Below are positions 10,163 to 30,774 of a stretch of DNA of 64,000 nt, in pieces. The position numbers were made by a program, and so were the translations under genes. The notes beneath the pieces were generated by a model. That model saw only the letters and a list, made by a program, of their open reading frames with translations, did not search any database and was not told where the DNA came from. Position 1 is the first letter of the stretch. Every line of letters starts with the position of its first letter. Source of the DNA: Bryum argenteum (taxonomy: Eukaryota > Streptophyta > Bryopsida > Bryales > Bryaceae); the NCBI GenBank assembly GCA_037043015.1, contig CM073328.1, positions 2,033,409 through 2,097,408 of the forward strand, read 5' to 3'.

Positions 10163-10167
10163 CGAGA

Positions 10168-10890: not shown

Positions 10891-13690
10891 AAATGTGTGC
10901 AAAAAACTAGATTTTGGTATGGCGAAGATCCACATATTCGGATATAAACCAAAATAGAATATTTGATGTGGTATATTTATTGAGCTCGTTAAGTGTTACT
11001 TGATTTATTCAATTGTTATTGAACATTGAAGTACAATATCTAAAATAATTTCTTATTTTAGCATGTGTTGCAAATTTGTTGTAATTTGGTATTGTATATG
11101 ATTTTCCTAAATAACAATATTAAGAATATATTTATGTCAATTGTAATTTTAAAACCTACCTTCACATATAATTAGGAAATTTAAAAGTTAATTCTACCTC
11201 GGTTTGTATGGCAATCTTTAAATTCAACTTTTTTCCTAGTTTAATTTAAGAACATATAATAGTTGCTTGTTTTTGGGCTTCAATCCTACCATATCTTTAC
11301 GACAGATGCATGATTGAGATATTGCTTAGGACATTTTACCACATATCCTAGAGCCAAACCCGTACACCCTAATCCCTAAACAACTAAAACCAAAACCGTA
11401 AACCCTTACTAGTCTCTCCCCTAATCCTCATTTATGATAGATCTAAAACAAATTGTATCCTGAACTTTAATTTTGACATACCTTCACAAACATGTGAATC
11501 TTGTGCAAAATAGTCATTTTGAGTGGATGGCCTCGAGATAACGTTTACGATATGTAATTTAGCATGTGTTGCAAATTTGTTCTTATTTGGTTGTGTATCT
11601 GTTCTAAAGAATAGAATTAGGATTAAATTTATGTGAATTAGGATTTCAAAACGTACCTTAATGTATAATTAGGAAATTTAGATTAAAATCTACCTTGGTT
11701 TGTATGGCAATCTTTATATTCAACTTTTTTTTCAAGTTTCATTTAAGAACAGATAATAGTTGATTGTATTGGGCTCCAAACCAATCATATCTTCACTGAA
11801 GTTGCATTATTGAGATTTTGCTTAGGATATTTTACCAAATACCCAAGAGCGAAGCCCGTAAATCCTAAACCTACACGACTAGAACCAAACCCCTACACCC
11901 GAATCTCTACTCTAGACCACATTAATATTAAATGTAAAAGATATTGTATCGTGAACTCAATTTTTGATATACTTTCACATATTTGGTTGTGTATATGTTT
12001 AAAATAACAAAAGTGAGAAAGAATTTATGTGAATTATAATTTTGAGGCGTTTCTTCACATATAACTAACAAATTCTGTAGTTAAATCTACCTCGGTTTGT
12101 ATCGCAGTCTTTAAGTCCAACTTGTTTTTCGTCCTTTAATTTAAGAACGAATAATATTTGCTTGTTTTGGGCTTGAAACCCAATATATCGGTACAAATGT
12201 TGCATAATTGATATATTGCTTAGGGTATTTTACCACATAGCATAGAGCGAAACCCGTAAACCCTAAACCCTAAACGACTCAAACGAAAACCCTAAGTCCT
12301 AATCCCTACCGTAAACCACATGTAAGGTAAATATAAAAGAAATATTATCGTGAACTCAAATTTTGACATACTTTTACATGAACATCATTTAATACCTTCA
12401 GAAACATTTGAATCATGTGTTATGAAGTCATTTTGAGTGTACAGAGTGGAGAAAACATTTACGATATGTAATTTAGCATGTATTGCAAAAAATTTCTAAT
12501 TTGGTTTTGTATATGTTATCACAAATAGAATTGGGAATAAGATTATGTGAATTATGATTTAAAAATGTACTTGTACATAATATTAGCGACTTTTGAAGTA
12601 AAATCAACCTCTGATTGTATGGCCATCTTGAAATTCAAATATTTATTCTAGTTTCATTTAAGAAGTAATACGCCATATTCGTTAAATTGGCCCCATCCCT
12701 TTTATATTTGGCCGCACACTATTGAAATAAGTAGAGTCAAAAGAAACGAAAGAGTTTTAAGATTGGAAAATATATTAATAATTTATTTTTGTCCACTCAA
12801 GGCATGTTGATTTCAATGCAATTATCTACATGGCATTGTTTTCATTTGTGCTATATACATTATTTCAAGCTGCCAAATTAATAGGGATTGGCCAATTCAT
12901 GGCGTCTAATAATAGTTGCTTAATTAGGACTTCAAACCAAAAATACCTTCATTAATGTTGCATTATTGAGATATGGCTTAGGATATTTTACCACATACCC
13001 TAGAGCCAAACCCGTAAATACTAAACCCTAAACAACAAACACAAAAATCTTAAACCCTAATTCGTACCCAAACCCACATTTAAGGTAACTAAGAAATTTT
13101 TTTTTCCGTGAACTCAAATTTGCTTCAGTCTACGTTCAAAAGAACAAAGTTGAAATAAGTTTATGTGAATTATGATTTCAAAATGTAACTTCACATATTA
13201 TTAGCAAATCTTGAAGTTCATTGCATCTCCGTTTGTAACGCAATCTTTAAATTCAACTTCTTGTTTGTAGTTTCATTTAAGAACTAATAATAGTTGTTTG
13301 TTCTGGGCTTGAAACCAAAAATATCTTCACGAAGGTTGCAATATTGAGATATTTTAGGATATTTTACCACATACCGTAGAACCAAACCCCTAAACGACTA
13401 AAAACAAAACCTTAAACCGTAATTCCTACCTTGGAAGACGCTAAAAAAGGCTCGAAAGTCTCTGAACAAGTCTCAGAAGTCGCTTAAGAAGTCTCGGTAG
13501 TAGCTTCGTATCTGGTGGTATATATAAGAGTCTTAACTTATATCTTGATATTCTAACTGAGTCTTCTTTGTTCGCGTTGTTTGTGTTCCCTTCTTTTGTT
13601 AATCTTAGTTTAATTAAGTTTGAGTTCTTATTCTCCTTTCATTTCATGTCCTTTACGTATTATTAGCGAATAATCTAATTTCGTTTCTAA
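10891..13690. repeat. Degenerate repeat units (375-490 bp) with CCCTAAAC-like strings
   Basis: The same passage recurs near 11,340, 11,830, 12,230, 12,990 and 13,365: ATATTTTACCACATA, then CCTAGAGCCAAACCCGTAAA, ACCCTAAAC and a block beginning GTGAACTCAAATTTTGACATA. Spacing is about 375-490 bp, apart from one gap of about 760 bp enlarged by the MITE at 12,670. The CCCTAAAC strings resemble the plant telomere repeat, but they are short and embedded in longer units, so this is not a telomere array. No gene is supported here. Confidence 0.7.
12670..12905. mobile_element. MITE family 1, full-length copy (236 bp)
   Basis: Starts ACGCCATATTCG then TTAAATTGGCC and ends with the inverted partner (GGGATTGGCCAATTCATGGCGT). 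Terminal inverted repeats are about 35 bp when the CCAAATTAATAGGGATTGGCC block is included. It is non-coding and inserted inside the degenerate repeat array. A clear target duplication was not established, so the superfamily is open. Confidence 0.8.
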
Positions 13691-13699
13691 TTTGTTCTA

Positions 13700-14790
13700 A
13701 ATAACAGAAGAATGAATATGCTAGTTCTAAACTTTTAGTTTTTTTTTAAATATGTTATAAATATAAAAATTGTGAATTCTAATTTCACTTCTTGAATACT
13801 AAATTAAAATATGCTAGTTCTAAACTTTTAGTTTTTTTCAAAATATGTTATAAATAAAAGAATTGCGAATAAATATTTGTGAATTCTACTTTCACTTCTT
13901 GAATACTAAATTAAAATATGCTATTTCTAAACTTTTAGTTCTTTTTAAATATGTTATGAATAAAAAAATTGAATTTTTTTTTCGTGAATTCTAAGTTCAC
14001 TTCTTGAATACTAAATTAAAATATGCTAGTTCTAAACTTTTAGTTCTTTTAAAACATGTTATAAATAAAAAATTTGCGAATTTTTTTTTGTGAATTCTAA
14101 GTTCACTTCTTCAATACCAAATTAAAATATGCTAGTTCTAGACTTTTAGTTTTTTAAAAATATGTTATAAATAAAAAACTTGCGAATAAATATTTGTGAA
14201 TCCTAATTTCACTTCTTCAATACCAAATTAAAATATGCTAGTTCTAAACTTTTAGTTTTTTTTAAATATGTTATAAATAAAAAACTTGCAAATAAATATT
14301 TGTGAATCCTAATTTCACTTCTTGAATACTAAATTAAAATATGCTAGTTCTAAACTTTGAATTTTTTAAAAATATGTTATAAATAAAAAAATTGCGAATA
14401 AATTATTGTGAATTCTAATTTCACTTCTTGAATACTAAATTAAAATATGCTAGTTCTAAACTTTGAATTTTTTAAAAATATGTTATAAATAAAAAAATTG
14501 CGAATAAATTATTGTGAATTCTAATTTCACTTCTTGAATACTAAATTAAAATATGCTAGTTCTAAACTTTGAATTTTTTAAAAATATGTTATAAATAAAA
14601 AAATTGCGAATAAATTATTGTGAATTCTAATTTCACTTCTTCAATACCAAATTAAAATATGCTAGTTCTAGACTTTTAGTTTTTTTAAAATATGTTATAA
14701 ATAAAAAAATTGCTACTTTTTTTTTGTGAAATCTAATTTCACTTGTTTAATACTAAAGTAAAATATGCTAGTTCTAATTTTTTTTATTTT
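13700..14790. repeat. 106-bp satellite array, about 10 copies
   Basis: The marker ATATGCTAGTTCTAAAC begins at 13808, 13916, 14021, 14127, 14233, 14339, 14445, 14551, 14657 and 14763. That is a period of 105-108 bp, mostly exactly 106; a shorter first unit starts at 13716. Units also share TATGTTATAAATAAAAAA and TTCACTTCTTGAATACTAAA. Copies at 14,339-14,650 are almost identical, a sign of recent local amplification. Confidence 0.95.
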
Positions 14791-14822
14791 ATTTTTCAAT
14801 TTTATACACTAAAATTGCCAAA

Positions 14823-14824
<2 letters not shown>

Positions 14825-14871
<47 letters not shown>
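14825..14871. repeat. Long T tract of nearly 50 bases
   Basis: An uninterrupted run of T follows AAAAGC at the right end of the satellite region. It could be a slipped homopolymer or a reversed poly(A) tail of a retroposed sequence, but no LINE/SINE body or retrogene is seen to its right. Length is likely to vary between individuals or assemblies. Confidence 0.8.
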
Positions 14872-14873
<2 letters not shown>

Positions 14874-16104
14874 GCAGGGCCCATGACCGCGCAAAGCAAT
14901 AAAATATTAAAAAAATATGGCCGAGGGCCCATGACCGAGCGCTTGGGTGCCCATGGCCGTGCAATGATTGCACGGTACGGGGGGCCGCATGATGACGGGA
15001 CTTAAAGTGCCCCGTTTTGGCGGCTGCCCGTCTTCCTCCCCCCGCCACCCCCCCCTGCCAGAGCTCATTCTCTTCATTCGCGCCTCGATTTCCGCACCGC
15101 TGCTACGGCCCCTTCCGCGCACCTCCATCGTTCATACTGTCTGCGTTTTTGGCGCCGCACCTACCGCAGCATCTGTGTTTTTGTTTGATTCTTTGCTTCT
15201 GCGCCGCGTTTTCGTTTGATTCTTTGCTTCTGCGCCGCGCCCACTTCCGTCTGCGTTTTTTTGCTGTCTGCGCCGCGCATTTGCTTCCATTCTCTGAATT
15301 TTTTGGCGGCGCAGCTCTTTGCTTCCGCCCAGGTCAGTTTTCTGGATTACTTTATTGTGCCGCATTTGTGTGCTTTTGCATTTTCGTTGTCGTTGTTTTT
15401 TGTTTCCGCGTTGGAGCTCTACGCCGCAGCTCACTGTGCATTCCGAGATTTTTGGAGCTCTACGCTATTCATCTTTTTTTTTATGTGTATTCTGCGCTCC
15501 ATAGCCGTGAGGTTTATTTCGTTTTCTTTTTTTGGATGCGTAGCTCAGCGAGGAGGTGACAACTGCGTCGATTTCGTTTTGGAGCTTGCAAGAGAGAAGG
15601 TAAGAAGCACGCTTCACTGCTTTTTGTAAATCGCAATTTCACAGGTTTTAATTTGTTGAAAACTACATTACTTGCATTGCGAATTTGTGCTTGGAATTGC
15701 CGTTTTCTACTTTTGTAGAATATTGTGATTAGTTTTCACAGTTTTGTGTATTGCAGTTTATTTTCTGATGTTATTTAGTTTTGTAGAATCCAGCAAGTTT
15801 TAGTTTGCATTGCATTTGAGGTTTTACATTGCACGTTTGTAGAACATTGAAGTACGATGTTGTTTGGAGATGAATGTGATGAACTTGTGTGCGTGTTTTG
15901 CAGGTGATCGTTTACTGTTTTTGGAAGCGGATCACATATCACCTAAGGTACAAATAAGAACCATTGTCTTTGAAAATGTGTGTTTTGATTGTGAATGCTT
16001 TTGATTTGAATGTCATTGTTTTTTGTTCACAGTTTTTTCCAGACATGTTAGAATAGTTGCAAAAGGCGTTTGGAAGTATTGACACGTTAGCATGTGTTTC
16101 AGAG
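14872..16104 (+). other. GC-rich island with probable 5' exons of the ParB/methyltransferase-like gene
   Basis: 14,872-15,600 is GC-rich, with a three-fold GGGCCCATGACCG-like motif (14,878; 14,925; 14,948) and a tandem TTGATTCTTTGCTTCTGCGCCG. Splice-like steps follow: donor after 15599 (GAGAAG/GTAAGA), acceptor before 15904 (TTTTGCAG), donor after 15947 (CCTAAG/GTACAA) and acceptor before 16033 (TTCACAG). No convincing protein is encoded, so these look like untranslated leader exons of the gene beginning near 17.1 kb. I infer a promoter in the GC island; no TATA box is assigned. Confidence 0.4.
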
Positions 16105-16105
16105 T

Positions 16106-17060
16106 TTACGAACGGCCGTTCGTAAGTTCTGCATCGGACTTTACATCAAATAAACGAACGGCCGTTCGTAAGTTCTTAAGTGGACTGTAGAAAAAAAAAC
16201 AAACGGCCCAGTTACTGGGAAAAAATTAATAACTTCTAACCAAAAACGAACGAACGTTCATAAGGTGCGTGTCTGATACCTCAGAAATTTACGAACGGCC
16301 GTTCGTAAAATGAGGTCACAAGTTAGGTCGCGAGATAGGTCAACAGTTCGTAACCCATGGTCGTAAAAATTGCCAAATCCCCATCATATTTGGCCGCACA
16401 ATATTAAGATGAATGGGCTAAAACGAAGAATAGTGGGGGTGCTTAATACAATAGTCATGGAAAACAAAAATACATTTGGTTGCTACAAATAAATCTATTC
16501 TCAATATCTACATGGCATTTTCTTCATTTATGCTAAACACTTTCAAGTGGTAAACATGATCGACATTGGCCACCCTAACGTATATGGTGTTTTAGGTAGT
16601 TAGGTAGTCAGTGAGGTAAGTGTCAGTTAGGTCCACGAAAGATACGAACGGCCGTTCGTAAATTTCGAGGTCGCAACCTCAAAAACTTACGAACGGCCGT
16701 TTGTAAAATTCGGTCGCGTGCTACGTTGGGATTTAGGTCAACTCTTAGTCAGCTGTTAGTCATCTGTTAGTTACGAACGGCCGTTCGTAAGCTGAGAAGT
16801 AACGACCTCAGTAACTTACGAATGCGCGTTTGTGAAATGGCGTTCGTGAAACGACGCCAGTTAGTTCGCAGTATTAGGCACTTACGAACGGCCGTTCGTA
16901 AGGTGAAAGGTCGAGTCAGTCACGTCTCGAGATCGCAAACTTACGAACGGCAGTTCGTAAAATTGTTCCCCGCTTGATGGGATGAATATTAATCACATCA
17001 AACCCCTTAGACTGATAGCAAGTCAATGTAGAAAACTACGAACGGGCGCCCGTGAACCAT
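16106..17060. repeat. Dispersed array of TTACGAACGGCCGTTCGTAA palindromes
   Basis: Perfect 16-mers ACGAACGGCCGTTCGT lie at 16108, 16154, 16291, 16644, 16773 and 16884. Close variants lie at 16689 (one change) and 16943 (GGCAG centre), and more degraded ones near 16246, 16335, 16817 and 17040. Arms usually extend to TTACGAAC...GTTCGTAA. Spacing is irregular (about 45-240 bp), unlike the tandem array at 10 kb. The stretch lies just upstream of the first long coding piece of the ParB/methyltransferase-like gene, in its presumed leader or first intron. Confidence 0.93.
16352..16590. mobile_element. MITE family 1, copy inserted among the palindromes
   Basis: Begins AACCCATGGTCG, then the CCAAATCCCCATCATATTTGG block, and ends GACATTGGCCACCCTAACG then TATATGGTGT, the inverted partner. 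Internal sequence matches the 5.8- and 12.7-kb copies. It separates two groups of palindromes, so it arrived after the palindrome field had formed or between two of its members. Confidence 0.75.
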
Positions 17061-17130
17061 GATATGCAAGTGACATACCTTGTGGTGATATCGGACCGCT
17101 TACAATTCCTACCTGTCTGAAATCTCAGGG

Positions 17131-17505
17131 ATGGATGATAATAGGTTCATGTCGCAGACGTCGAATTTGTCCCCCTACATCACAGAACTACAATCGTCAG
17201 ATCTTTCTGAATGGGAAAGAAGTGAAGTACTGGAATTGGAGACTGCAGTAACCCTTAACGGGGTTAGCAATTCTGCGTGGTCCATAGCCCCGGAGGCAAC
17301 AACCATGGATCACAATGTCATTTTCAAACTGGCAGTGGGGAAACCCATGGCCAATAACCAGTACCGCTGGAAGGCGTTCTGTGGTATTTCAATACATGGT
17401 TTAAATAGTTCCCCGGGCGTAATGATACTTACATTGGTGTCAAATATGATGATTGGTAAACTTATTATACGTCTAGATGACAACCATCCGTTCGATATTC
17501 AATAA
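17131..17505 (+). CDS. N-terminal piece of the ParB/methyltransferase-like gene
   Basis: 124 codons from ATG at 17131 (MDDNRFMSQTSNLSPYITEL), preceded by an acceptor-like AAATCTCAG. No known domain is seen. It is rich in Ser, Leu and Asn and contains a short hydrophobic stretch (SSPGVMILTLVSNMMIG). The same frame continues beyond its stop into the next piece, so the two probably belonged together. A small intron over the stop cannot be ruled out. Confidence 0.45.
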   Translation: MDDNRFMSQTSNLSPYITELQSSDLSEWERSEVLELETAVTLNGVSNSAWSIAPEATTMDHNVIFKLAVGKPMANNQYRWKAFCGISIHGLNSSPGVMILTLVSNMMIGKLIIRLDDNHPFDIQ

Positions 17506-18420
17506 TGCTTGAACGAAACAGCTAGACTAGAGGATCCATGGAAGATGCTTATATTCAACAACCTAGGACCTTGGCTTTCGTATCAACATGGATCGTACGA
17601 TGTAGCAAATGTTTGGACCCGCTTGATAAAGCAAATAGAAGGCCTTGTTGCATGTCGACTGAGGAAGTCTGCATCTGCAGCTAAACCCAGGAGCGAGTCA
17701 GAGCCGATCACCATGGGCAGACCGAAAGCGAAGACAGAGCCGAAGCCCCCGAAGCAGACAAAGAAGCCGGATGCAGAACGAGCACGAAGGGCACCGAGGT
17801 CATCAGTGGCGACCGAAAGCGACGTTCCTGCACCAACAACAGGGGTTCGTCCAAGTACAGCCGAATCTGCCCGTGGTAGTCATGTGCAGAGACCTCGGAT
17901 GGTAACCCATGTCGTGGAGAGTACCCAAGCTCAAAGCAACAGAGGAGAAGGATCAGGAGTTCCAGTTGCACGTGACGAAGCAGGTGCATCCGCATCTGTG
18001 CATGGCGAAATTTCTCCAGATCCGGAGGCAGCAGTCCAGACGGAGAGAATACCATCGACGCGAAGCACCCGCAGTTCCGGACTGAGTTCTCCGGTTCGAA
18101 ACATCACTGGCGCAATCCTTGCCGCGGCGCCAAGTCAGACCGGGCACAGCCCCGTGCAAGGCAGTGCACCATCCGGACGCGTAGACGACATCCGGAACAT
18201 CATTAACCTTCCGCAGGCGAAGCCAGCGAAGGTTACGTTGCTTACTGTGGACACTTGGTCTTCCTATCCGGCGGCCAGACCATTTGATGCAACCTTGGAG
18301 ATCCCGTATCACCTGGAGACCCAAGTTTCCACGACGGGACATCCGAAGAATGAAGACAAGGATGTCCTGCTACGCAGGAAGGCCGAACTCAATGAGAATT
18401 CATCAAAGACTCGGATTACA
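17506..18420 (+). CDS. Linker piece leading into the ParB-like domain
   Basis: Same frame as the preceding piece. After about 60 residues of ordinary sequence (LNNLGPWLSYQHG-type) it becomes a low-complexity Pro/Ser/Arg/Ala linker of about 170 residues, with basic tracts (KPPKQTKKPDAERARRAP). From about 18,180 it becomes structured (PAKVTLLTVDTWSSYPAARP), which fits the first strand of a ParB-like domain. The domain then continues in a shifted frame. Confidence 0.45.
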
Positions 18421-18986
18421 TGTATATATTTGGTCGCGACCAGCTGTTCGAGCTCGCCATCGGACACATGGAGCCCAGTGATCACCGCTCTGGGAAAATT
18501 TATCGTGACTACGAAGCATCTGGGGCGGAAGAGATCAAGCGCAGCCTACTCGTGCACAACTTCACGAAGCCAATTCTGACGGTGATGCCGAATCTTTCGA
18601 GGAGGCCAACGGACTCGATGGAATGTGTCAAAGCCGGAACTTTCAAGATCATCAATGGGCAACACACTTGGCATGCCGCGAAGTCCATCCTCGGAGACGA
18701 GACAATGCATAGGAGCTGCCACCGAGTGGAAGAGCTGAAGGTTTGGGACGTGCAGGTCGTCTGGACGGACAAGGTGCACCACTTGCACGCCCTATCTTTC
18801 AAGTGCAACGAGGGCCAGAACTAGGCGAAACACCTGGCGTCACTTCTCCGGGCTATTCTGCACTGTCGCGTGCTCTATGAGCAAGAGGGGAAACCCCCAC
18901 TTGTCAGGAAGAATGCCGTGACCCGAAAGAAGAAAGAGGCGGTGGAGGATGACAAGGTGGATCCGATCCTAAAACAAAAATACGAG
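18390..18986 (+). CDS. ParB/sulfiredoxin-like domain segment
   Basis: In the frame of ATG 18420 the peptide contains the ParB-type order of elements: IKRSLLVHNFTKPILTVMPN, then TFKIINGQHTWHAAKSIL (compare the family's GQHR-AA motif), then KVWDVQVVWTDKVHHLHALS and KCNEGQN. The frame carries on beyond a stop with AKHLASLLRAILHCRVLYEQ to a clean donor (TACGAG/GTAAGT) after 18986. ParB-like domains bind DNA or a nucleotide, and in some fusions act as nucleases. Which applies here is unknown. The usual GHR/GQHR arginine is replaced by Thr (GQHT). Confidence 0.55.
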
Positions 18987-19040
18987 GTAAGTACATCCAC
19001 ATCTTTCAGTACAAGCAGGATTGCATGTTAGAGTTAATTT

Positions 19041-19385
19041 ACGAATTGCAGTTCGTAAACTTTGGACTTCTTCTTGATAGTCTTGTAGAACAACGATAGG
19101 GATGCATATGAGATCTCAAAATGCACAGCAAGAAGTTAACGAACAGTCATGCGTATCCGAACATCTAACCGTTGAACGTCTTTAGTGAAGCAGTCATCAT
19201 TTCAAACAAGCAGGATAAAATATCAGTGGTTTTACGAACTGCAGTTCGTAAAACCAAGCAGGATAAAATATCATTGATTTTACGAACTGCAGTTCGTATA
19301 CTAAGGACAGCTTCATATTAGAGTAGCAAAGTCAGAAGACTTTCACATTACAGCACGCTGTAGTAGTTTACGAACGGCCGTGCGT
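19041..19385. repeat. Palindromes in intron between ParB-like and methyltransferase-like exons
   Basis: Intron 18987-19420 contains ACGAACTGCAGTTCGT at 19234 and 19282 (perfect), a one-change copy at 19041 and a GGCCG-centred copy with one change at 19370. The pair at 19234 and 19282 sits in a 48-bp direct duplication (AAGCAGGATAAAATATCA shared), so local duplication has spread the palindrome here. Confidence 0.9.
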
Positions 19386-19420
19386 ATAATTTCTAACCGC
19401 TGTATTTTTTTGTGCTGTAG

Positions 19421-20779
19421 TCGTTCCGCGAGAGAGCAATCCAATCCCTGAGCCACACCATCAAACAGGAGAATCCCAATCGACCGATTACTGTCGAGTG
19501 GGAGAAGAGGGGTGAACGCCAGATAATTATGGCACCCGACGACGTGTGGGAGAAATGGGAGAAAGTCCTCAAGAACTTCGAGTCTGGTGATTTGATCGAC
19601 CTCAATACGGGGAAAGAGATGAAGCATTCAGCGAACTTTAAAGAGCTGACGAACCTGAGTCTCATCTCCGGAACATCCCTCCGGGGACTCGCGAGCTTAA
19701 CGACGGCTCAAGTTGAGGAAGCCGCGGACTACATCCTCGCGAACCCCCCGCGTATTTATCTTGGAAAGGCCCCCCGGACTTGGACTCGGGCTCTTTCATT
19801 GGAGAAGCACTGCGAGCGGAGAAAGTGGAAGGACGTCATCCTCAAGACCATTGGGGATCGTATTGCGTACGTGGAGAAGGATCACAATCCCTTCTTCGAC
19901 GACAACCAGCAGGTGAAATCCGGAGCATGGAAGGAATGGAAGAAGAAGACTATGTTTTCTTCTTGCATCATGCAAGCAATCTACTTCAGTGAGGGGATGG
20001 AAAGCTTCATCAAGGATACCATTGCGGTCAACAAGAAGACCCCAGAGTTTCCCCCCAAGCAATGCCGGAAGAGAATCGACCAAGCCTTGGTGAACGAGTA
20101 TCGAACAGATATTGTCCGCTCGGGCAACTGGTCAGTATTTATTGCTTGGAAGCCCACGGAGAACAGGCTGTCGAACGGGACTGCAGAATTTGGTCCAGCT
20201 GGTCTGTTGGACAAGAATGTAACTAGGCCATTCAAGACGAAGAAACTTACCGCCGGCATTCTTGATCTCCGCCATTTCCCTCCGGTGTCGACAGCTGCCG
20301 AGATTACAACCAGTTGGCAGATGATGATCGACAACATCAAGAAGAGGACCGACAAAATTGGTTGCGCCAACGTCAAGGCGTGGATGATTATTGCCCCCGT
20401 GGACCGCCAGGGCTACGTGGACATGCTTCATGCAAACTTCTTCACGGAGTACCGTTGTAAGCATGTCCAGTACATATACATGCCGGGGGAGCCAATGGCG
20501 AAGGCAAAGAAAGTGCAGGTCGATTCCATCACGTACCTGGAGAAGAAGTTCACATATCCGGACGGCATCGAGCGCTACTTCTCTCATGACATCGCTGAAG
20601 AGACGTTGATCGGGAAGCAGTTCGAGAAGCAAGATTTCTATCGGGCCGAGCACAAGGACTTCATCTACAGTGCCGAATTGCGAATGGAGACGTATTTGCG
20701 GTTCCTTTCCCGCCACACGCAGAAGAACGACAACATCATTCTGGCTTTTGCCGGAATTAAAGCACTGCGCGCTTGCCGG
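19421..20779 (+). CDS. Methyltransferase-like exon, first part
   Basis: 453 codons, entered from acceptor TGTGCTGTAG and open throughout (SFRERAIQSLSHTIKQENPN at the start). About 20,258-20,285 encodes ILDLRHFPP, where N4/N6 DNA methyltransferases carry the DPPY-type catalytic motif. VKAWMIIAPVDRQGY, then FFTEYRCKHVQYIYMPG, fits the strand that follows. The exon ends NIILAFAGIKALRACR, resembling motif I (FxGxG) of the beta class, whose motif order puts the catalytic motif first. Both key motifs are altered (no DPPY, AGIKA for GxGxT), so catalysis is doubtful. The family call rests on motif order, not on a search. Confidence 0.5.
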
Positions 20780-20819
20780 GTAAGTTTCTGATCAATTCGG
20801 GTTTTGATGGTGCTTGTTT

Positions 20820-20875
20820 ACGAACGGCAGTTCGTAAACATCATAGTTCAGTGCATTTAACGAACGGGCGTTCGT
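20820..20875. repeat. Two palindromes in the second large-gene intron
   Basis: Intron 20780-20921 (142 bp) holds ACGAACGGCAGTTCGT at 20820-20835 and ACGAACGGGCGTTCGT at 20860-20875, each with TTTA or TTAA flanks. The two take up nearly a quarter of the intron. Confidence 0.9.
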
Positions 20876-20921
20876 AAGTTTTCCGACCTTACTAATTAGT
20901 TGTGGCATTGTTGTGTATCAG

Positions 20922-22613
20922 ATGATGGAGAGGAACACAATCTGCATTGAAACTTATTGGCAGAAGAATGTAGCCTTGTTCTTCAAGGCGGTGTCGGAGG
21001 GGCCTTCGATGTGGCCGATATATTTCCTTCCGAGGAAGGAACTAATGATCGGGGATCTCATTGACTCGTATGATTACAGGGTCGTTTACCCGCTTGTAAA
21101 TTACGAGGTCAAAACAGGTCTGAGGCCGGGTGCGTTTTACCCTGAGGACAGGGACAACTTCATTCGCCAGTCACAATCAAGTGTTGGAGCTGGGATATCT
21201 ACGCAGAGTTCTCAACGCCCGGACGAGAATGACGAAGTTCTGCCAGACGCAGAGACATCGCCAGGCTTAGCTGATCCGATCAGTCCTACAGCGGAGGATG
21301 AAGTCCTCTCCTTGAAGTCAGGATCCCGAGACAAGGACGATGTAGATTCGCGATCCGGTGATTCGGCAGAATCGGAAAGGTCTCCGGGATCGAAGGTGGA
21401 TGATTCGGTGTCCAGCAGGGGATTTGAACCAAGGGTGGAAGAGCAGCATGTGAATGCGGCCGACAAAGTTCCTGCGAATGAGGGTCCTCAACAGGAGGAC
21501 ACAAGCAGCAATTTCGCGGATGCCCAAGTCGATACTGAAGTGGAGGTCGAGGACGTCCAAGCGCATTCTCGGTATCGAATAGCTAGGATCGCAGAGGATT
21601 CTGCGGATGTCCTAACGAGCGGACTGGCACAGATATTGCTAAGTCCCGAGCAGTGCGCGATTGACTTGGGGGACGTGGATTCCCAATGGGCTGTGATACC
21701 TTGTACTTACGAACGGCCGTTCGTAAGTGCAGAGAGCGAGGACGCCACACCGGCGGACCTCGCAAGGGCCGAGGATGAGATGCCCACGACGGAGAGCGTG
21801 GATGCAGAGGCGATGGCTTCCATGGAGAGGGAAGAGTTGGCCGAGGCAGAGAAGAAGGCCTCGGCGGAGGCACATGCCAAGGCCTCGGTCGAGAGGGCCG
21901 AGGCTGAGGCGAAGGCCAAGAGAGAGTTGGCCGAGGCTGAGGCGAAGGCCAAGAGAGAGTTGGCCGAGGCAGAGGCGAAGGCCTCGGTCGAGAGGGCCGA
22001 GGCTGAGGCGAAGGCTGCGACAGAGTTGGCCGTTGTAGAGGAGAAGGCCATGGCTGAGCTGAAAGCCTCGAGTGAGTTGGCTGAGGCAGAGGCAGAGATG
22101 GCCTCGAAGGAGAAGGCTGAAGCAGAGGCGAAGGCAATGATGGAGAAGGCCGAGGCAGAGAATGAAATGATGGAGAAGGCCGAGGCACAGATGGCGTCGA
22201 AGGGGAAAGCCGTCGCGGAGGGAAGTGCGTCAACGTCACTTCAGCAAGATGCACCATTCTTGGAGCCAACCCCTATTGTGGCCCCCGCGGCGGTTGACGA
22301 CGAATGCATGGACGTAGAGGACGAGGAAGCCATGGCGAGGCGGATTGCAAAGGAAGCAGAACTGGCGTGGCGGGCCAAAGAAGAGGTTGCGCAGAGACGG
22401 AGGGAGGAAAGGGCCAAAGAGATCGAACTCGACAACGAGGTCTTTGCGAAGAAGTTCTCGAGGCCAGCCCCGGACCGTATAATCCTCAACAGTGACTCTT
22501 CTGATGATGAGGAGGATGAGCGAGTCAGGGGAAGGCTGTTTCAACGCTTCCAGTGCGTGCTTCCTCCCAAGGGAAACTTTGCCATTAATCGAGCAGGAAT
22601 CAGCCATGTTTGA
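20922..22613 (+). CDS. End of methyltransferase-like domain plus acidic linker and Glu/Ala coiled coil
   Basis: Starts at acceptor TGTATCAG. MMERNTICIETYWQKNVALFF completes the motif I/II region begun in the previous exon (compare GRN-IG-E in the family). After about 90 structured residues comes a Ser/Asp/Glu-rich linker. From about 21,840 to 22,220 there is a heptad-like Ala/Glu/Lys array with units such as AEAEAKAKRELAEAEAKA, built from an imperfect DNA repeat. A second charged helix (RRIAKEAELAWRAKEEVAQR) follows. The frame continues past its stop into the next piece. The coiled coil suggests oligomerisation or scaffolding. Confidence 0.55.
   Translation: MMERNTICIETYWQKNVALFFKAVSEGPSMWPIYFLPRKELMIGDLIDSYDYRVVYPLVNYEVKTGLRPGAFYPEDRDNFIRQSQSSVGAGISTQSSQRPDENDEVLPDAETSPGLADPISPTAEDEVLSLKSGSRDKDDVDSRSGDSAESERSPGSKVDDSVSSRGFEPRVEEQHVNAADKVPANEGPQQEDTSSNFADAQVDTEVEVEDVQAHSRYRIARIAEDSADVLTSGLAQILLSPEQCAIDLGDVDSQWAVIPCTYERPFVSAESEDATPADLARAEDEMPTTESVDAEAMASMEREELAEAEKKASAEAHAKASVERAEAEAKAKRELAEAEAKAKRELAEAEAKASVERAEAEAKAATELAVVEEKAMAELKASSELAEAEAEMASKEKAEAEAKAMMEKAEAENEMMEKAEAQMASKGKAVAEGSASTSLQQDAPFLEPTPIVAPAAVDDECMDVEDEEAMARRIAKEAELAWRAKEEVAQRRREERAKEIELDNEVFAKKFSRPAPDRIILNSDSSDDEEDERVRGRLFQRFQCVLPPKGNFAINRAGISHV
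21706..21727. repeat. Perfect 22-bp palindrome inside the coding exon
   Basis: A perfect inverted repeat with core ACGAACGGCCGTTCGT at 21709-21724 and CTT/AAG outer arms lies in the reading frame of the ParB/methyltransferase-like gene, just before the coiled coil. It is read as TYERPFVS without breaking the frame. Confidence 0.95.
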
Positions 22614-22988
22614 GTCCCGGGAGAAGCCATGAAGCCCGATCCGGCGGAGGAGGAGAATGACATTCCTTCAGGAGCTGCCTCATCCCAGAAGACAGGTCAA
22701 GATCTGCAGGATGTGAAGACTGAGAAAATCGAGGCCGAGTCTCGGAAGCGCAAAGCCGAGCTGCAAGAGGTGACTGAGAGGCTGGAGAAGAAGATTAGGG
22801 AGGAGGTCCTCCAGAGGGTGTACAAGGACCTTGAAACGGGGAAGATTACGTTCCCAATCCCTCATCAGGAATCCATTTCTGGCTTCCGGTCCGAGATACA
22901 ATCCGAGGTCTCCAACGCTGCTTCTCCTTCCATCATTGCGCTCTCGGATCCGCCCACCGTCACGGAGCCGGATTCTACAGTCCCATTG
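22614..22988 (+). CDS. C-terminal charged-helix piece of the same gene
   Basis: In frame with the preceding exon. It is a Lys/Glu-rich helix (VKTEKIEAESRKRKAELQEV, then TERLEKKIREEVLQRVYKDL), followed by a Ser/Pro/Thr tail, ending at the donor CCATTG/GTAAGT. It may be the tail of the long coiled coil. The ATG at 22629 gives an alternative internal start. Confidence 0.5.
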
Positions 22989-23115
22989 GTAAGTCCTCAG
23001 AACTAAGATTTTCCGTGTATGTCGAACGAACTCTCAGTACCTTACATGAATAACCAAGACATAGATGTTCCCATGTATGGTAAGGTTGTTGATGTTACCT
23101 GTTTCTTCTAAACAG

Positions 23116-23190
23116 GTACAATCCAGGATATTTGTCCCCGCCCATGTGGATATTGCGGGGGAAGACTCTGCTGCTGCTGGCAATCTATAG
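23116..23190 (+). CDS. Alternative terminal exon A of the ParB/methyltransferase-like gene
   Basis: Acceptor TTCTAAACAG leads in phase 0 to 24 codons (VQSRIFVPAHVDIAGEDSAA and so on) and TAG. The intron would be 127 bp. No known domain. It is supported only by splice signals and phase. Confidence 0.35.
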   Translation, partial: VQSRIFVPAHVDIAGEDSAAAGNL

Positions 23191-23500
23191 ATATTATATT
23201 GGGGCTGGAAACCCATTTGGGTAGTCCCAGTTGTTAATAGTTAGTCGGCCTGGGTTTTTAGCCATTCGATAGGGTGACACATATTTCCCTATCACAGATT
23301 TTGTTTCTTTTTTCCCCATAGCAGGGTTGTCCCTCTCCCTCAGCAAATCCAAAACTGTCCATACCATTCAGATTACCCGAGGGAGTGGAGCAACCATTCT
23401 TGTTAAGCATTGTACAGATTTATCAAAGGAATTAATGAAACCATGAACACGTTTTTCCGACCTGGGCTCATACTTCGAGTTGCACATGTTGTATATTCAG

Positions 23501-23710
23501 GTTCCCTATCTCCACAGCAATGCCACGCAAAAAATTCATGACCTTTGGACTGTCGGACAAATGCATTACGGCAGTTGTGATGGTGTAAAACGCAAGGACA
23601 TGGAGCCTATCGAATGTCCGGAGTATTCGATGGTGGTTTCCGTTAGCGACTCCTCTGGTACTCCGCGTGCGTATGAGGACGATGCGGACTCCGGTTCCTT
23701 CCCGGAATAA
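23501..23710 (+). CDS. Alternative terminal exon B of the ParB/methyltransferase-like gene
   Basis: Acceptor TGTATATTCAG opens 69 codons in phase 0 (VPYLHSNATQKIHDLWTVGQ at the start, ending DADSGSFPE and TAA). Its base composition is coding-like (GC-rich, C/G third positions in the tail), unlike the flanks. It could follow 22988 directly by skipping exon A. No domain recognised. Confidence 0.4.
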   Translation, partial: VPYLHSNATQKIHDLWTVGQMHYGSCDGVKRKDMEPIECPEYSMVVSVSDSSGTPRAYEDDADSGSFPE

Positions 23711-25430
23711 ATATGAACGAAGCCCACGTCCATGAGTTACATGTAAAGATTTTTAAAAAAACAATGTCAACCTATCTGAAATGCCTAACATAAGAAAGTA
23801 GCATAATGTTATATATTCCCAAGTGAATGCCAAACAATTAAAAATGAATACAGAAAAATAAAACTTGGGAGAACGTAGTATGTTAATTGACATCAAATGT
23901 ATTGTTCGATACATCTCCCGCTTACAAATTATTTTGGGCTTCCCCCCTTCACTTTACATTCTTAGAAAGGAAGTCACATTGACTTAGATGTTGATTAAAT
24001 TAGACAGTTATTTCTTAGTGCTGTATGACTCCAGCTTAGTGTGTAATGCAATAAGCATGTCCATGACGGTTGACATTTACCATACAGATGTAATTACGTG
24101 GCCGCAGTTGGCTATCTTCATGAATCACGCTGATATTTAAAATGTTGTTTACTTGATTATACGAACGGCCGTTCGTAAGCAGTGAATCAAATAGGAGTAC
24201 TAGTCCTTGGTACTCCCCATGGTTGTTCGAAGCGTTGAGACATGGTCCGGAATGACCCTAAACTAGCAGATGTGCCCCTCCTTCCCAATACCTGCAACCT
24301 TCGGGTCTCTAATTCATGCCTCCCTTGAGCTACTCGATCTCCTTTGCCCCTTATAGGTAAATGGTTGACTGTCTCCTGTCGCTCACAATTTTGCCTTTCG
24401 TAACCATTTGATGTCGAGTTCATCCAATGCAATAATCCTGACGCTAAACTTGAAGAGCATTTTCCGGCATTTGCTGGCTTGGTGGTAAAGAATAGACTCG
24501 GGTGTCCGCTACTTTCCGCTCTTACCCCGTACTTACATCAAATGAATTACAGGTTTCTCTCTCGCTATTTTCTCGTTGACTGGCACTTGGATTACAGAAT
24601 CAGTAGCACTGAACAGTGTTCAATTCTACTGATATTGTAATCCAAGTGCTCGACGCTAGGAGAATTCCGACAGAGAAGCTTGAAATTCGTTGGGTTTAAG
24701 TACTGAGCAAGAGCTGGAAGAAGCAGACACCCAAGTCTATCCTCTACTACCAAGCCTCCTCTCGCCTCAGATCCAGCAAGTGCTGGAAGATGCTTTTCAT
24801 GTTTCGCGTAAAGTTTATTGCCTTGGATGAAGTCGACATTACATGGATACAAAAGGCCAAATTGTAAGCTTCATTGTCAACCCATTACGTATAAAGCGCA
24901 GTGGAGACTGAGTATGTGATTTGGAGCATATGATTTGGAGCCCGGAGACTTGTTCGTATTGAGATAGAGTTGTGGCAAGGGAGTGAAAGAAGTATTATTT
25001 CTCCTCTTAGTTTTGCTTGCTCGTATCATATTCTCCTGACAACTCGGGCTACTTTGAAGTAGTGCTACTACGAAGTATAATGGCGTGAGTTAAGGATTGA
25101 TTGGAACTTTGTCCAAATATGGCCCTCATCGTTTTGTACCTTGAGTTGCTGGGAGAATATGGTACGAGTAAACATAACAAAGACGAGGAATCATGAGAGA
25201 ATTTGAACTGGGTTTCAAAGTCTTCAGTTGCTCACGAATCAGCTTTCATAACGATGTGATATGAAATTGATCGTCTGCAATCATCGTGACGTTGAGCACG
25301 AAGAGTATTTTCGGGCACCCCATTTTCAATGCCATTTTCGAGTACTGATATCCAGAATACTCGTGAGTGCTCTAAAATGCACTTCCTGCTGACCGTTAGG
25401 ATGTCTGCCATCCATCATCTTCATATTACA
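23711..25430. other. 3' flank without a supported gene
   Basis: AT-rich to 24,100, then mixed-composition DNA with a perfect palindrome at 24,161 and the first copy of the GACCCTAAACTAG motif. Reading frames on either strand are short, with no family motif. Whether the transcript's 3' end lies here cannot be told. Confidence 0.4.
24161..24176. repeat. Perfect palindrome downstream of the gene
   Basis: ACGAACGGCCGTTCGT, right arm extended to GTAAG. It is the last perfect copy in the window. Decayed copies follow at about 25,436 (ACGAAAGCTTGTTCGT), 25,602 and 25,668. Confidence 0.9.
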
Positions 25431-27073
25431 TTGTTACGAAAGCTTGTTCGTGAGCGACTACAGACTTAGGAGGAAATTACTGGATTGATGAGCCGATGAA
25501 TGCATGTTTGGTCCGGAACGACCCTAAACTAGGATACCTGCACTGCCGCACATCGTATCTGTTACATGATTCGTACAGGAATTCGAAGGCCGTAAACATT
25601 TACAAACTACCGTTCGTAAATATGGGCCGAGGCGGTGTATCTCAATTGCCAGCAGCCTTCCGTTTTGAACGAACCACCGTTCGTGGCCACTTGTTGTAAA
25701 GTTGTGATGTTGCAGGAATTGCAATGGAGATGAAGACTATACCGAAGTCCTCGACGATTTGGAGATCATATTAATTTGAGGAGATGGTTCAATAGGTGGT
25801 TCTCAAGCTGGTTCTCAAGGTGCTTCTTCATGCTTCTGCACGGATCTCATGGCCCGGCACCCACAAGAATTCAAGCGAGCGTGTACGTGTTCTTGTAGTT
25901 GAGGATTCCAACGGCGACAATACTCAGTTACAGAAAGTGAATGCTCGGACTTTGTTTCATTCACTGAAGCAGTTTACTTCTAGTCTATAGTTCATAGGTT
26001 AGTTTGCGTGGTCCCAATCACTTCAGTGAAGTTGGACTTGATATTTTTTAATAAATGGGGTCTCTCCTCCCTCACAGAAGGGGTAGAGTTTTTCGCATAT
26101 TGGTCTTTAGTCTGCCCTTTACCTCGCTTCTGTGCCCCACTACTCCGAGTCTTGTTTTGATTTTTTAGAGCGGCCGTTCATTTATTCAGTTGCTTGCTTG
26201 TGAATAATACTGTATGAGCAACATGGTTCTGCTCGTGTGTTGGTCCGGGACGACCCTAAACTAGCAGGCCTCGGTAGATTCATCCGTGCTGATCGACTTG
26301 CGTGATTATCGACGGTTGTTCGGAAGCCAGAGTGCTATGGTCCGAGACGACCCTAAACTAGCGTGCCCCGAAGATTCATCCCTGCTGACTTAGATGGTTC
26401 TTGATGGTCGTCCAGAAGTTTGAGGTGCGACGGTCCGGGACGACCATAAACTAGCAGTCCGTCCAGCACAAGATTTTGAAGTACAGAGGAGATGCATATT
26501 TTCTCATCATAAAAATAAATGTGATCAACGGAGGTTCAAAATAGGATCTGTGGACTTCAGAGGCAGCGGAGATGGAGTCAATGCGAGCGATGTCTTTGGA
26601 CCTGGTGGTGGATTACTTTGGAATTTACCAAGTATTGATCCCCCGTACATTTGAGTCTCGTTTGTTCAATTCGATGCCAGTCTAGTTTCATGTGGGATTG
26701 GCTTTCGGATGGATCCAAGATGGCAAAGGAACGAACCGGTGGCGGTAACAACGTTCGCTATCTCCCTCAGATCTTCCGGGGAGGGGATTCGATACATCGA
26801 CAGTTGTGCGGTGGACCACCAAGCTGAAGCACCCCAAAGGAAGCAACATTGACGGGAGTCCACTCGAAGCCATTTTTATCCACCTATGTAGTTTATTGGA
26901 CTCTGGCGATGGATGTAGAGAAGTTTTACGACTTGAATGAAACTAAGGGAAAAAAAAAATCATGTCTGACGACGAGTTGTTGGTGCATTGGTACCATTGA
27001 TTTGCTGAATTTTCATGATTCACGTTCAAATCCGTCGTTCAGATCCGGGGTCCGGAATGATCGTAAACTAGCA
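24244..27073 (+). repeat. Six copies of a GGTCCGGAACGACCCTAAAC-type motif
   Basis: The motif (about 25 bp, continuing CTAGCA) begins at 24244, 25510, 26242, 26339, 26432 and 27049, always on the plus strand. The three copies at 26.2-26.5 kb are spaced 97 and 93 bp and share flanking ATTCATCC and CTGCTGA words, so they form a short tandem array. Differences between copies are 1-4 bases. I do not recognise the motif. No coding frame links the copies. Confidence 0.85.
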
Positions 27074-27180
27074 GTACTGTGAGTCTCGCTTCAACTTCAT
27101 GAAGAAAGATGTTTGAGGATGTTTGAAGGAATATCAAAATTGCTCAAGAGATACGAATCCGACTAAGGCCCGGTAGGATG
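25431..27180. other. Gene-free stretch between palindrome relics and repeat units
   Basis: Apart from the repeated motif and three decayed palindromes, short frames occur near 25.5, 25.8 and 26.85 kb with no family signature. An isolated C/T-rich segment (26,040-26,160) is present. No gene is supported. Confidence 0.4.
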
Positions 27181-27627
27181 TTAATGTGGAGGTTTTGAAC
27201 GATGGTATAGGGAGAACGCTTTATACGTCGTGGAGATATGGAACCCGTCCAGCATTCATGCAGACTGACGGAGAACCAATGAAACGAAGGGGAAATAAAA
27301 ATGGCGCAGGCTGGAGAATGAGAACAAGCACACCTGTATACTTGTCGGAGTGTGGATGTTTTTTGCTTGCTCTCCACCCCGTGATTGATGCCTTGAGAGG
27401 AACGAAACTCAGGGAAAAAAACAAGACTACTCGGTTGGAGAGCGCAAAGCCATTCAAGGAAACTCAGGGAAAAAAAGGGAGACTATGGAGCTCGTTCAGT
27501 AGCACTCTGGATGTTGATGTGGGGGAACTCACCAATGAAATGAAGGGGAAATAAAAATGACGCATGATGGAGAATGAGCAAAAATGCGAAAAGGTTGAAC
27601 AGTATTAGTAGCTCACCGGATGAAGAA

Positions 27628-28711
27628 CAGAAATTGCTCAACATGAAAGCGCAGCGGTATGGAGCGAGGGGGGAATATAAGGAGAGAGCCGAGGCCATGG
27701 AACAAACACAATGCTCTTGAGTCATCTCTTTCGGTGCATGAATCAATGAATTTTATACATCCCAAGAGATAACTCCAGAACTTATTTCGTCTGTACCATG
27801 GCCCCGACTCTCTACTTTTATTTCCCCTTCGTTTCATTCCTCTCCGCATGTCATGTGTGGAGAGCAGATTGTATGAATCGAAGGGGAAATAAAAACAGGA
27901 AGTGGATTATTTTCGCATTCCACGCACTGGATTTCTGCTGCAACACTTACGGCAAGAAGAGCAGGAGAGCGAAGTTCGTCGAGGAGCTTGGACTGACGAG
28001 GCCGGGATCGAAGAAGAGGGATGCAGATGTAGAGAAACCCACCAATGAAACGAAGGGGAAATAAAAATGACGCAGGATGGAGAACGAGCGAAAATGCAAA
28101 AAGGTTGAACAGTATTAGTTCATGTAAACAGGATTTGCTTGCAGGCACGAAACTACAATGGGGTTTCGAGCAATATGTCGATTCTCTTTGCCCTGTCAAG
28201 TGGATTATTTTCGCATTCCACGCATTCGATTTCCGCCCCGACACTTGCGGCAAGGATAGCAATTGGCGAAGTTCGTCGAGGAGTACGGAACGACGAGGTC
28301 GGGATCGATGATGCGATACGCAGATGTGCAGGAGCCCACAAATGAAACGAAGGAGAAAAAGAAAAAGGGCTTCCACCAGACAGGTTCATCTGTGGTATCT
28401 CTCTTGCGTCGGTCCACCGAGCGGAAACGTGGGCTGTGGGATCAGAAATTGCTCAACATGAAAGCGCAGCGGTATGGAGCGAGGGGGGAATATAAGTAGA
28501 GAGCCGAGGCCATGGAACAAACACAATGCTCTTGAGTCATCTCTTTCGGTGCATGAATCAATGAATTTTATACATCCCAAGAGATAACTCCAGAACTTAT
28601 TTCGTCTGTACCATGGCCCCGACTCTCTACTTTTATTTCCCCTTCGTTTCATTCCTCTCCGCATGCCATGTGTGGAGAGGAGATTGTATGAATTGAAGGG
28701 GAAATAAAAAT
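27628..28711 (+). repeat. Near-identical 269-bp direct duplication (27628-27896 and 28443-28711)
   Basis: Both copies run from CAGAAATTGCTCAACATGAA to GAAGGGGAAATAAAAA and differ at about five positions, which makes them about 98% alike by eye. The offset is 815 bp. Each copy contains CTACTTTTATTTCCCCTTCG, the inverse of the word near its right end, so each has inverted repeats. No protein is supported. Confidence 0.92.
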
Positions 28712-29080
28712 AGAACTTCTTGAATGGGGCAATGGAAGTGAACGCAAGCAATCAATATAATACTAAGGACAGATGCAACTGAAGCCGTCACAATCCTCAT
28801 CATAGTTCTCACAACAGGCGAATTGCATCATAAATCTGGCCATGGTGGAGAAGGCTCGACATGTTGAAGAGAAAGCGGAGGTATCTTGAAACCAATTTTT
28901 TGGGGATTTGGGGATTATTTTCGCATTCCACGCATCGAATTTCTGCCCCAACACTTTCAGGAAGAAGCGCAACGGGGCGAAGTTCGTCGAGGAGTACGGA
29001 CTAACGGAGCCGGGAACGATGAAGCGATACACAGATGTGGGGGAACCCACCAATGAAACTAAGGGGATAAAGGAGATTCA
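27890..29080. repeat. Three-copy unit with GGATTATTTTCGCATTCCAC start
   Basis: Units at about 27,903-28,070, 28,199-28,350 and 28,911-29,070 share GGATTATTTTCGCATTCCAC, then AAGTTCGTCGAGGAG, then CACCAATGAAACGAAGGGG. Frames run through all three on both strands (plus strand: KFVEEYGLTEPG-type; minus strand: SVLLDELR-type), so an old coding origin is possible, but no family is recognised. Further copies of the closing word lie at about 27,277 and 27,531. Confidence 0.75.
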
Positions 29081-29985
29081 TCTGTTGTATCACTCTTGCG
29101 TTTTTTCCAGCAGGCTGAAACATGGGTTGTGTAAACAAAAGGCTCACGTACGAGTCTCGGATAATAAAGATTCATTGCGAGCCTAGGAGGTTGCGTAGTA
29201 TTTGTCTTCAGATCCTCTCACTTTGTTCTTGCTCTAGCGAGAAGCGTCCTTTAGATCCCCTCCATCTATCACTCGATAGGCAAGAATGGTTTAGGGTAGA
29301 TTAGTCACAAGGAGGTTCCTACTTTCGATACCTGTGCTGTATCCATTTGTCCAAGTGCACTCTTCGCAAGGGCGGACGATCTTTTGCAAGCAATGCACTT
29401 CGACATCCGTGATCATTCATAGTTGTTTTATGAGAGAACGTCCTTCTATCTAGGATTACAAGATATATTTCGTGGAGGGAAGATCGGCAGATGTAGTGGC
29501 ACTTATATTACGAAAAAAAACTTGAAAGTTCATGTGCCGTGTAATCATGTTTGACGACCGAAACGATGGTGATGAAGTGATTCGCAAGAATGTGTTGGAA
29601 ATCACCTTGTCTTTGCGATACACATTGTTGGATACACAAATTCCAATGGAGGTGTAACTAGTACCACTTATATTAGGAAATAAAATCTTGAAAGTGTATA
29701 CTGCAGAAAATTTACGAATGCACATTGCTTAAAAACTATATGAATCTTGGTCACTTTGGCCAGATTCTTGCCAAGTTTCATGGTTTTTGCTTCACAAATT
29801 CTGCCATATTGGCTGCCTATTTTCCATATAATCCTCAGAATGACCCCATTTCAAGTATATCTCTACATATTTTTCTCAATTTTTCACCCTAAAATTGTGC
29901 CATGTTATCGGATTGTTGCCATTTTAACTTGATTCAGGTTATCTAGACTAATCGTTAAGAACTATAGAGTAATGTTTGCTAAATA
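29081..29985. other. Gene-free AT-rich stretch
   Basis: Only short frames. Two related passages (about 29,495-29,525 and 29,660-29,700) share CACTTATATTA and CTTGAAAGT, an old local duplication. Nothing else recognised. Confidence 0.4.
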
Positions 29986-30510: not shown

Positions 30511-30544
30511 ACAAGGTATCAAAAATGCGTTAAATATTTCTTAA

Positions 30545-30695
30545 ATGGGAAAATATATTTAATATTTATTTGAGTTATCTCAATGCATGTTGATTTTAAT
30601 GTAATTATCTACATGGCATTGTTTTTATTTGTGCTACACACACTATTTCAAGCGGCCAAAATAATAGGGATTGGCCAATTTAACCAATATGATGT
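30545..30695. mobile_element. MITE family 1, right-half copy
   Basis: Matches the right part of the 12.7-kb element: TGCATGTTGATTTTAATG, ATTATCTACATGGCATTG, CAAGCGGCCAAAATAATAGG and terminal GGCCAATTTAACC...ATGATGT. The left end is missing or unrecognisable. Confidence 0.75.
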
Positions 30696-30774
30696 TCTTA
30701 GTTAGGAAAATAGTCTTGCGAGAGTTTCTCAATCATTCAGCAAGAAGTAGCGGAGTATAAATCCAATGATGAGA

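Follow-up and report, generated by a model that had tools for sequence, protein, structure and literature searches.

Palindromes of a 24.9-kb DNA transposon in Bryum argenteum as putative self-recognition sites of an accessory protein encoded by the same element

A 64,000-nt stretch of the genome of the bryophyte Bryum argenteum (NCBI GenBank assembly GCA_037043015.1, contig CM073328.1, positions 2,033,409 to 2,097,408 of the forward strand; hereafter the window) carries a set of closely related palindromes, and we found that these lie within a single DNA transposon of 24,855 bp, in and around a gene of that transposon which encodes a possibly ParB-like, possibly methyltransferase-derived accessory protein. 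The palindromes are probably the cognate binding sites of this putative DNA-binding protein, serving the recognition of its own element. When the window was first read without any searches (the sequence-only reading), three interpretations were offered, namely a parS-like protein-binding site, a hairpin and a hairpin that inserts itself. The first is favored here, because the arms of the palindromes are conserved while the center varies and because the motif tracks the paralogous protein genome-wide; the two hairpin interpretations are disfavored.

The 16-mer ACGAACGGCCGTTCGT occurs exactly eight times in the window, at 16108, 16154, 16291, 16644, 16773, 16884, 21709 and 24161, which verifies all of the coordinates given in the sequence-only reading. 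With up to three mismatches there are 24 such sites, as compared with 0.04 expected (100 dinucleotide shuffles), and ACGAAC-N4-GTTCGT with up to one mismatch yields 25 sites versus 0.11 expected. Both sets are confined to 10.05-10.16 kb and 16.1-25.7 kb, so that the earlier restriction of the palindromes to 10.0-10.2 and 16-25.7 kb holds at these thresholds; just outside these zones there are far weaker look-alikes (12-13 of 16 letters) at 9916 and 26306. The sites occupy the leader, both introns and one exon (21709), as had been described, and also the 3’ region (Table 1). The sequence-only reading overlooked the transposon that contains these sites, to which the array at 10 kb also belongs. 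The composition of this left array appears variable among copies of the element. In four copies (L014, L015, L019 and L028) a second exact palindrome lies about 200 bp downstream of the site in exon C, probably through a local duplication of coding sequence, and in a subfamily of about 80% identity there is an array of seven exact palindromes with a period of 25 bp (G000:C2:22055851-22056016).

The limits of the transposon were set by comparing genomic copies. A search with the left end found 25 other genomic places that begin at window positions 5833-5842, mostly at 5841 or 5842, and a search with the right end found 38 that stop at about 30691-30708, many of them at 30696, where the boundary is abrupt. 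The two ends are inverted repeats of each other (AACAcCATATTcGTTAAATTGGCC), and a perfect 4-bp target-site duplication (TSD) flanks 11/11 copies, these being the window copy and ten others with both ends located (the flanks of three of the 11 were read by eye). Because of these shared inverted-repeat ends and perfect 4-bp duplications, the element is a cut-and-paste DNA transposon with terminal inverted repeats (TIRs). A 4-bp TSD is characteristic of the Sola superfamily, with which the element agrees in this respect, and a Pfam search of its open reading frames (ORFs) returned DUF7869 only.

The assembly (258.8 Mb, 25 contigs) includes, on contig C12, a plastid rbcL with a 93% match to the RbcL fragment of a land plant and with tRNA-Arg(CCG) following it, a gene order indicative of a bryophyte. 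Searching the whole assembly revealed 237 copies of the exact 16-mer and none of its reversed control. The 50 places listed among these 237 form seven clusters, none of them farther than 10 kb from a copy of exon B of the accessory gene; one of the seven is a relative at 80% identity (L030). All 50 thus lie within this element family, which contradicts the possibility, raised along with the sequence-only reading, that the palindrome is a common repeat scattered over the genome.

In 22 of 27 aligned copies (L030 and L031, of the ~80% subfamily, and the poorly aligning L006, L016 and L017 were dropped), minor alleles occurred in 32/1785 cells of the palindrome arms and 32/592 of the centers, as compared with 908/8495 in the intron flanks and 991/29681 in exon B. 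Six of the seven sites entered a permutation, the exon site being excluded, and their intronic arms varied at a mean of 1.9%, versus 11.5% in random intronic windows (0/20,000 draws as low). Against the ~80% subfamily, the arms in the second intron match at 23/24 positions, the rest of that intron at 47/87 and exon B at 1082/1349, and CpGs were kept in 350/363 cells of the palindromes, 146/198 of the flanks and 1736/1935 of exon B. The arms therefore vary less than both their own introns and the coding sequence, and keep their CpGs, with figures that are indicative rather than exact probabilities, since the sites were picked as palindromes in the window, which favors the reference form, and the copies are related. 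A passive drift of tandem repeats without function, which could draw on the internal duplications of the leader, the 22-bp array at 10 kb and the repeated palindromes present in non-element DNA beside one copy, is hardly credible given the roughly 6-fold lower variation of the arms than of random intronic windows and the retention of CpGs.

We then asked what accompanies the gene in more distant relatives. Among the 93 candidates scored, of 542, paralogues of exon B reach identities as low as about 20%, and repeated palindromes were present around the gene in 13/13 loci chosen by protein beyond the window’s own family, including two (L071 and L072) that were fetched last, as a test of this prediction, after L037-L047. 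The palindrome differed by protein clade, the forms being ACGAAC-N4-GTTCGT, CTGGGCGNNCGCCCAG, TTCAACTCGANTCGAGTTGAA, TTTAGCTCGANTCGAGCTAAA and TTTAGGTCGNNNCGACCTAAA, with TTACGAAC-N4-GTTCGTAA as the family-A form. Four loci at 45-56% identity (L037-L040) have the ACGAAC arms in common, two of them (L039 and L040) with TTAA-type centers; L042 and L043 carry TTCAACTCGANTCGAGTTGAA, L044 and L045 carry TTTAGCTCGANTCGAGCTAAA, L041, L047 and L072 have CTGGGC/CTGAGC-type palindromes, and L046 has a looser GAACGGCCGCCC-type palindrome. In a matrix of motifs against loci, which covers neither L048 and L049 nor L071 and L072, nearly all matches fall on the diagonal: none of the B, C and D loci contains motif A, and motifs C and D, which are two symmetric substitutions apart, give 1-2 cross-matches at two mismatches. 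No cluster of at least three palindromes was found in four 8-kb control pieces of the window.

The position of the sites was surveyed in 13 loci, a set that includes the window and L048 and leaves out L049, L071 and L072, using bins that are distances from exon B rather than introns verified per locus. Sites occurred upstream, up to 700 bp before and up to 450 bp after exon B in 12/13 loci, and inside exon B in none of the 13 (in L046 the counts merge two motif forms, so that a site may count twice), while the reversed motifs gave one site in two loci and none in the other eleven. On a protein tree of exon B (15 rows, without L049, L071 and L072), the four motif classes require three changes, the minimum, and 0/200 shuffles were as low, a test that is helped by near-copies on a tree whose deep joins are unsure where several long branches meet. 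Sites for a host transcription factor driving the element could well be located in a leader and introns, but such a factor would be expected to keep its motif fixed across families; since the related elements of this single genome have no fewer than five different palindromes between them, distributed according to the protein clade of the element, this explanation is very unlikely.

The association also holds from the motif to the gene. Motif C occurs 875 times in the genome and motif D 5,878 times, with no occurrence of the reversed controls. The 50 listed motif-C places on contig C1 form nine clusters by our own reading (places within 15 kb being joined), eight of which have a listed family-C exon B no more than 5 kb away; conversely, all eight listed family-C genes in that part of C1 have motif C (the gene lists come from scoring 92 of 1125 candidates for family C and 95 of 1136 for family D). 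Both loci fetched by motif alone (2/2) held the gene: L048 has an exon B with 35% identity to family C, and L049, itself one of the nine clusters, has family-C 5’ exons at 86%. Contig C1 (44 Mb, 17% of the genome) accounts for 80/98 listed family-C rows and 75/98 listed family-D rows, a listing that is possibly biased, and could represent a sex chromosome or else a region rich in repeats.

The same loci bear on whether it is structure, and not the sequence as such, that is conserved, with the palindromes being hairpins in DNA or RNA, or small mobile units, as their perfect dyad symmetry and their unit-like gain and loss between copies could suggest. Complementary two-sided changes in family A number 32 versus 16.6 expected, about a twofold excess, and two-sided changes are nearly all complementary in the scans for C (152/159) and D (84/84), the latter excess being due for the most part to cross-matching between the C and D forms in these scans. 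However, changes in the family-A arms are mostly one-sided (572, versus 69 two-sided), the arm sequence itself is fixed across diverged families, and a center of one base, as in the C and D palindromes, is presumably too small for a tight loop; conservation for structure is thus extremely unlikely. A self-inserting hairpin is disfavored by the placement of sites on either side of exon B in 12/13 loci of diverged families, the second exon palindrome looking like a local duplication.

Several observations weigh against the palindromes being sites of the accessory protein. Because motif and gene travel as parts of a single element, their association alone is no proof of binding. The correspondence is also imperfect: a motif-C cluster at 2.69 Mb of C1 has no listed family-C gene, L071 has just four sites of two forms (mainly TTTAGGTCGNNNCGACCTAAA), in L045 all sites lie 3’ of exon B, and motif class D spans two protein branches that are not united on the exon-B tree. 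The strict first scan missed four of the 11 paralogue loci (L042, L043, L044 and L046) and in L045 found only a different, three-copy palindrome; the odd-centered forms emerged in a follow-up scan. Shuffled sequences gave clusters of 0-2 for the strict scan, which alone had a shuffled null, unlike the odd-center scan and the scan of L071 and L072. The flank of L035, outside the element, holds two repeated palindromes of an unrelated kind (n = 4 and n = 3).

Further points on the same side concern the protein. In the window copy the gene, which is multi-exon and on the plus strand, is interrupted by stops or a frameshift in its 5’ exon(s); L010 and L012 are among the copies in which exons B and C, and the part of exon A that was covered, are open. 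The similarity to ParB is weak, the best match being PHROG_723 with the 5’ exon of the window (E = 5.4e-4), and two of four paralogue exons matched a ParB PHROG (phrog_1033; E = 0.0098 and 0.22). Searches of the accessory protein against Pfam, NCBIfam and the PDB gave nothing firm, the alignment-based Pfam and PDB searches including one junk row (L011, wrong strand) of the alignment used (A1), and tblastn of a ParB-like exon against phage gave no match. Modeling exon B with AlphaFold from one sequence gave an unusable result, with a mean predicted local distance difference test (pLDDT) score of 31.8.

The gene had been labeled ParB/methyltransferase-like in the sequence-only reading; profile searches lend the first half of this label weak support (best PHROG E = 5e-4), and the second half is suggestive only. 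The last part of exon B can be aligned with two PRMT7 chains in their S-adenosylmethionine (AdoMet) motif I region (E = 0.09 and 0.11), matches that rank below a chance-looking match to a cytochrome (E = 0.025). In such methyltransferases DPPY-like catalytic residues and an FxGxG motif are expected. The DPPY-like motif is absent from the alignment of paralogues (A2), ten of which keep D-[LF]-R-x-x-P at the expected place, and in motif I a lysine replaces a glycine in the eight rows that reach it, so that the catalytic motifs look degenerate. These replacements make it improbable that the accessory protein is an active adenine or cytosine N-methyltransferase with the palindromes as its modification sites, marking the element with N6-methyladenine or N4-methylcytosine, even though the motif I-like end points in that direction and the accessible text of a report on an Ectocarpus Sola1 element proposes modification for its ParB-methyltransferase protein (PMC12477816).

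The transposon carries a second candidate partner for the palindromes. On the strand opposite to the accessory gene lies an ORF with a DUF7869 domain, which we infer to be a candidate transposase, adjoined by an ORF that may form the 5’ portion of this gene. A PDB search with the DUF7869 ORF found no match, and a literature search, with most subscription journals outside its reach, found no paper naming DUF7869; relatives on viral contigs were not confirmed for this ORF or for exon B (alignment A2). That the palindromes are sites of this transposase, needed for transposition and diversifying with it, would fit their family-specific occurrence in the same mobile element and the position of the left array about 0.7 kb upstream of the minus-strand ORFs. 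It is nonetheless distinctly unlikely, since sites with at most one arm mismatch are not subterminal, the outermost 4 kb on the left and 5 kb on the right being free of them, and the palindromes concentrate around the accessory gene in the loci examined.

If the palindromes are indeed sites of the accessory protein, a symmetric protein, probably a dimer, would read the two arms of 6-8 bp and tolerate variation in the center, and we infer direct binding and dimerization of this kind. The protein would recognize its own family through sites in the leader, before and after exon B, farther downstream and close to the minus-strand ORFs on their 5’ side, and the outcome may tentatively be taken as anti-silencing or autoregulation of the element, akin to that of the VANC proteins of VANDAL transposons.

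A possibly ParB-like stretch combined with a palindrome of 16 bp is reminiscent of the bacterial ParB-parS system, in which parS is a 16-bp palindrome. Here, in contrast, no partition context was seen, the sites are many and dispersed, and several palindrome classes exist in one genome. A bolder extension, which we regard as unlikely, is a eukaryotic parS: the ParB-like protein would load on the palindromes of its family and spread along the 25-kb element, marking it as self in the nucleus, and the pressure of host silencing would have driven serial new palindrome-protein pairs, leaving several mutually blind codes in one genome.

The closest precedent for family-specific sites comes from Arabidopsis. 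According to the accessible text of the reports concerned, VANDAL motifs are short, family-specific and located upstream of VANA and in introns of VANB/VANC (PMC5735166), and the VANC motif and protein diversify together between families, with motifs being gained in tandem repeats (PMC5735166, PMC10398659). The likeness lies in family-specific motifs in the non-coding parts of an element, co-diversifying with a protein of that element, as judged here from sequence alone. As far as that text goes, VANC motifs are 8-9-mers in one orientation with palindromes unmentioned, whereas those described here are palindromes of 15-22 bp; the protein is possibly ParB-like and the TSD is 4 bp, and demethylation, as caused by VANC in its family, is for the present element at most a prediction. 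Mutator-like elements (MULEs) have a TSD of about 9 bp. With its 4-bp TSD, and with no MULE or VANC domain in the Pfam matches of the eight ORFs scanned, the element does not group with VANDAL/VANC.

A closer match in overall organization is Sola1-1_Ec32 of Ectocarpus, a giant DNA transposon of 21.5 kb with a ParB-like and DNA-methyltransferase protein on the strand opposite to the transposase; in the part of the report available, such proteins are suggested to bind and modify their own transposon (PMC12477816). The element described here is likewise giant (24.9 kb), with a possibly ParB-like accessory gene on the strand opposite to the candidate transposase. It differs in its bryophyte host and in methyltransferase motifs that look degenerate, and neither target sites nor motif co-diversification are described in the accessible text on the Ectocarpus element, where “palindrom-” is absent from the main text (PMC12477816). 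Fungal DNA transposons that encode TET/JBP proteins provide, as far as the available text of the report extends, another case of chromatin-modifying accessory genes (PMC12730594). The accessory gene here would be of that general type, with an unrelated enzyme class. We know of no self-target motif in the TET/JBP transposons.

Self-recognition by transposons is itself known from VANC, and palindromic targets of a ParB-like transposon protein, as proposed here, appear to be new, because the literature search, which left most subscription journals out of reach, found none described. If the proposed pairing is true, it would represent a self-recognition code independent of that of Arabidopsis VANC, the well-described one found, with several cognate pairs in a single genome. 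It would supply candidate target sites for the published idea that ParB-methyltransferase accessory proteins bind their own transposon, and the protein-site pairs could serve as a ready set for sequence-specific epigenome control and as a natural experiment in the evolution of DNA-binding specificity.

Table 1. Coordinates of the transposon, its genes and its palindromes in the window
Feature	Position	Strand	Remarks
Whole TIR DNA transposon copy, 24,855 bp	5842..30696		Ends common to many genomic copies; TIRs; 4-bp TSD
Target-site duplication CTTA, left	5838..5841		
Left terminal inverted repeat AACACCATATTcGTTAAATTGGCC...	5842..5888	+	Inverted match to right end
DUF7869 ORF	6391..8307	-	Opposite strand to ParB-like gene; Pfam DUF7869, E = 1.4e-42
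ORF adjoining DUF7869 ORF	8337..9338	-	No Pfam match
Left palindrome array	10029..10160		Spacing ~22 bp; 3/5 best sites CTGCAG-centered; ~0.7 kb beyond 5’ end of minus-strand ORFs
Leader palindromes	16106..17055		6/8 exact copies, and variants
5’ exon(s) of accessory gene	17131..18988	+	ParB-like stretch 18420-18821; PHROG_723, E = 5.4e-4
Intron	18989..19420	+	Palindromes at 19039, 19232, 19280, 19368; splice sites read from sequence
Exon B, 453 amino acids	19421..20780	+	Without palindromes; query for finding paralogues
Intron	20781..20921	+	Palindromes at 20818, 20858
Exon C	20922..22612	+	Exact palindrome 21707-21726 translated in frame; acidic repeats
3’ palindrome, exact core	24159..24178		
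Less perfect 3’ palindromes, n = 3	25434..25686		
Right terminal inverted repeat AACATCATATTgGTTAAATTGGCC...	30652..30696	-	
Target-site duplication CTTA, right	30697..30700		

Other repeats were seen in and around the element. Upstream of the leader there is an AT-rich tandem array with a period of about 105 bp (13715-14800). The leader itself (14850-17130) is far more diverged among copies, at a patchy 68-93% identity, than exon B of full-length copies (92-97%). Two sequences of about 240 bp resembling miniature inverted-repeat transposable elements lie at 12674-12910 and 16354-16593, with ends that resemble the termini of the transposon; relatives of the latter, which sits in the leader, occur at about a dozen other positions in the genome. 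Scans of the window for Rfam families (at the gathering threshold) and tRNAs gave no matches. The repeated palindromes in the flank of the C1 copy, at L035:163-344 and 3417-3751, are TCGGGCGATCGCCCCA-like and TAACTCGTACTAGTTA. The 3’ part of the element (27275-29130) contains several internal duplications, one of them 274 bp long at 97.8% identity, and outside the element, between 32000 and 55000 of the window, further repeats of about 67-92% identity occur in both orientations.

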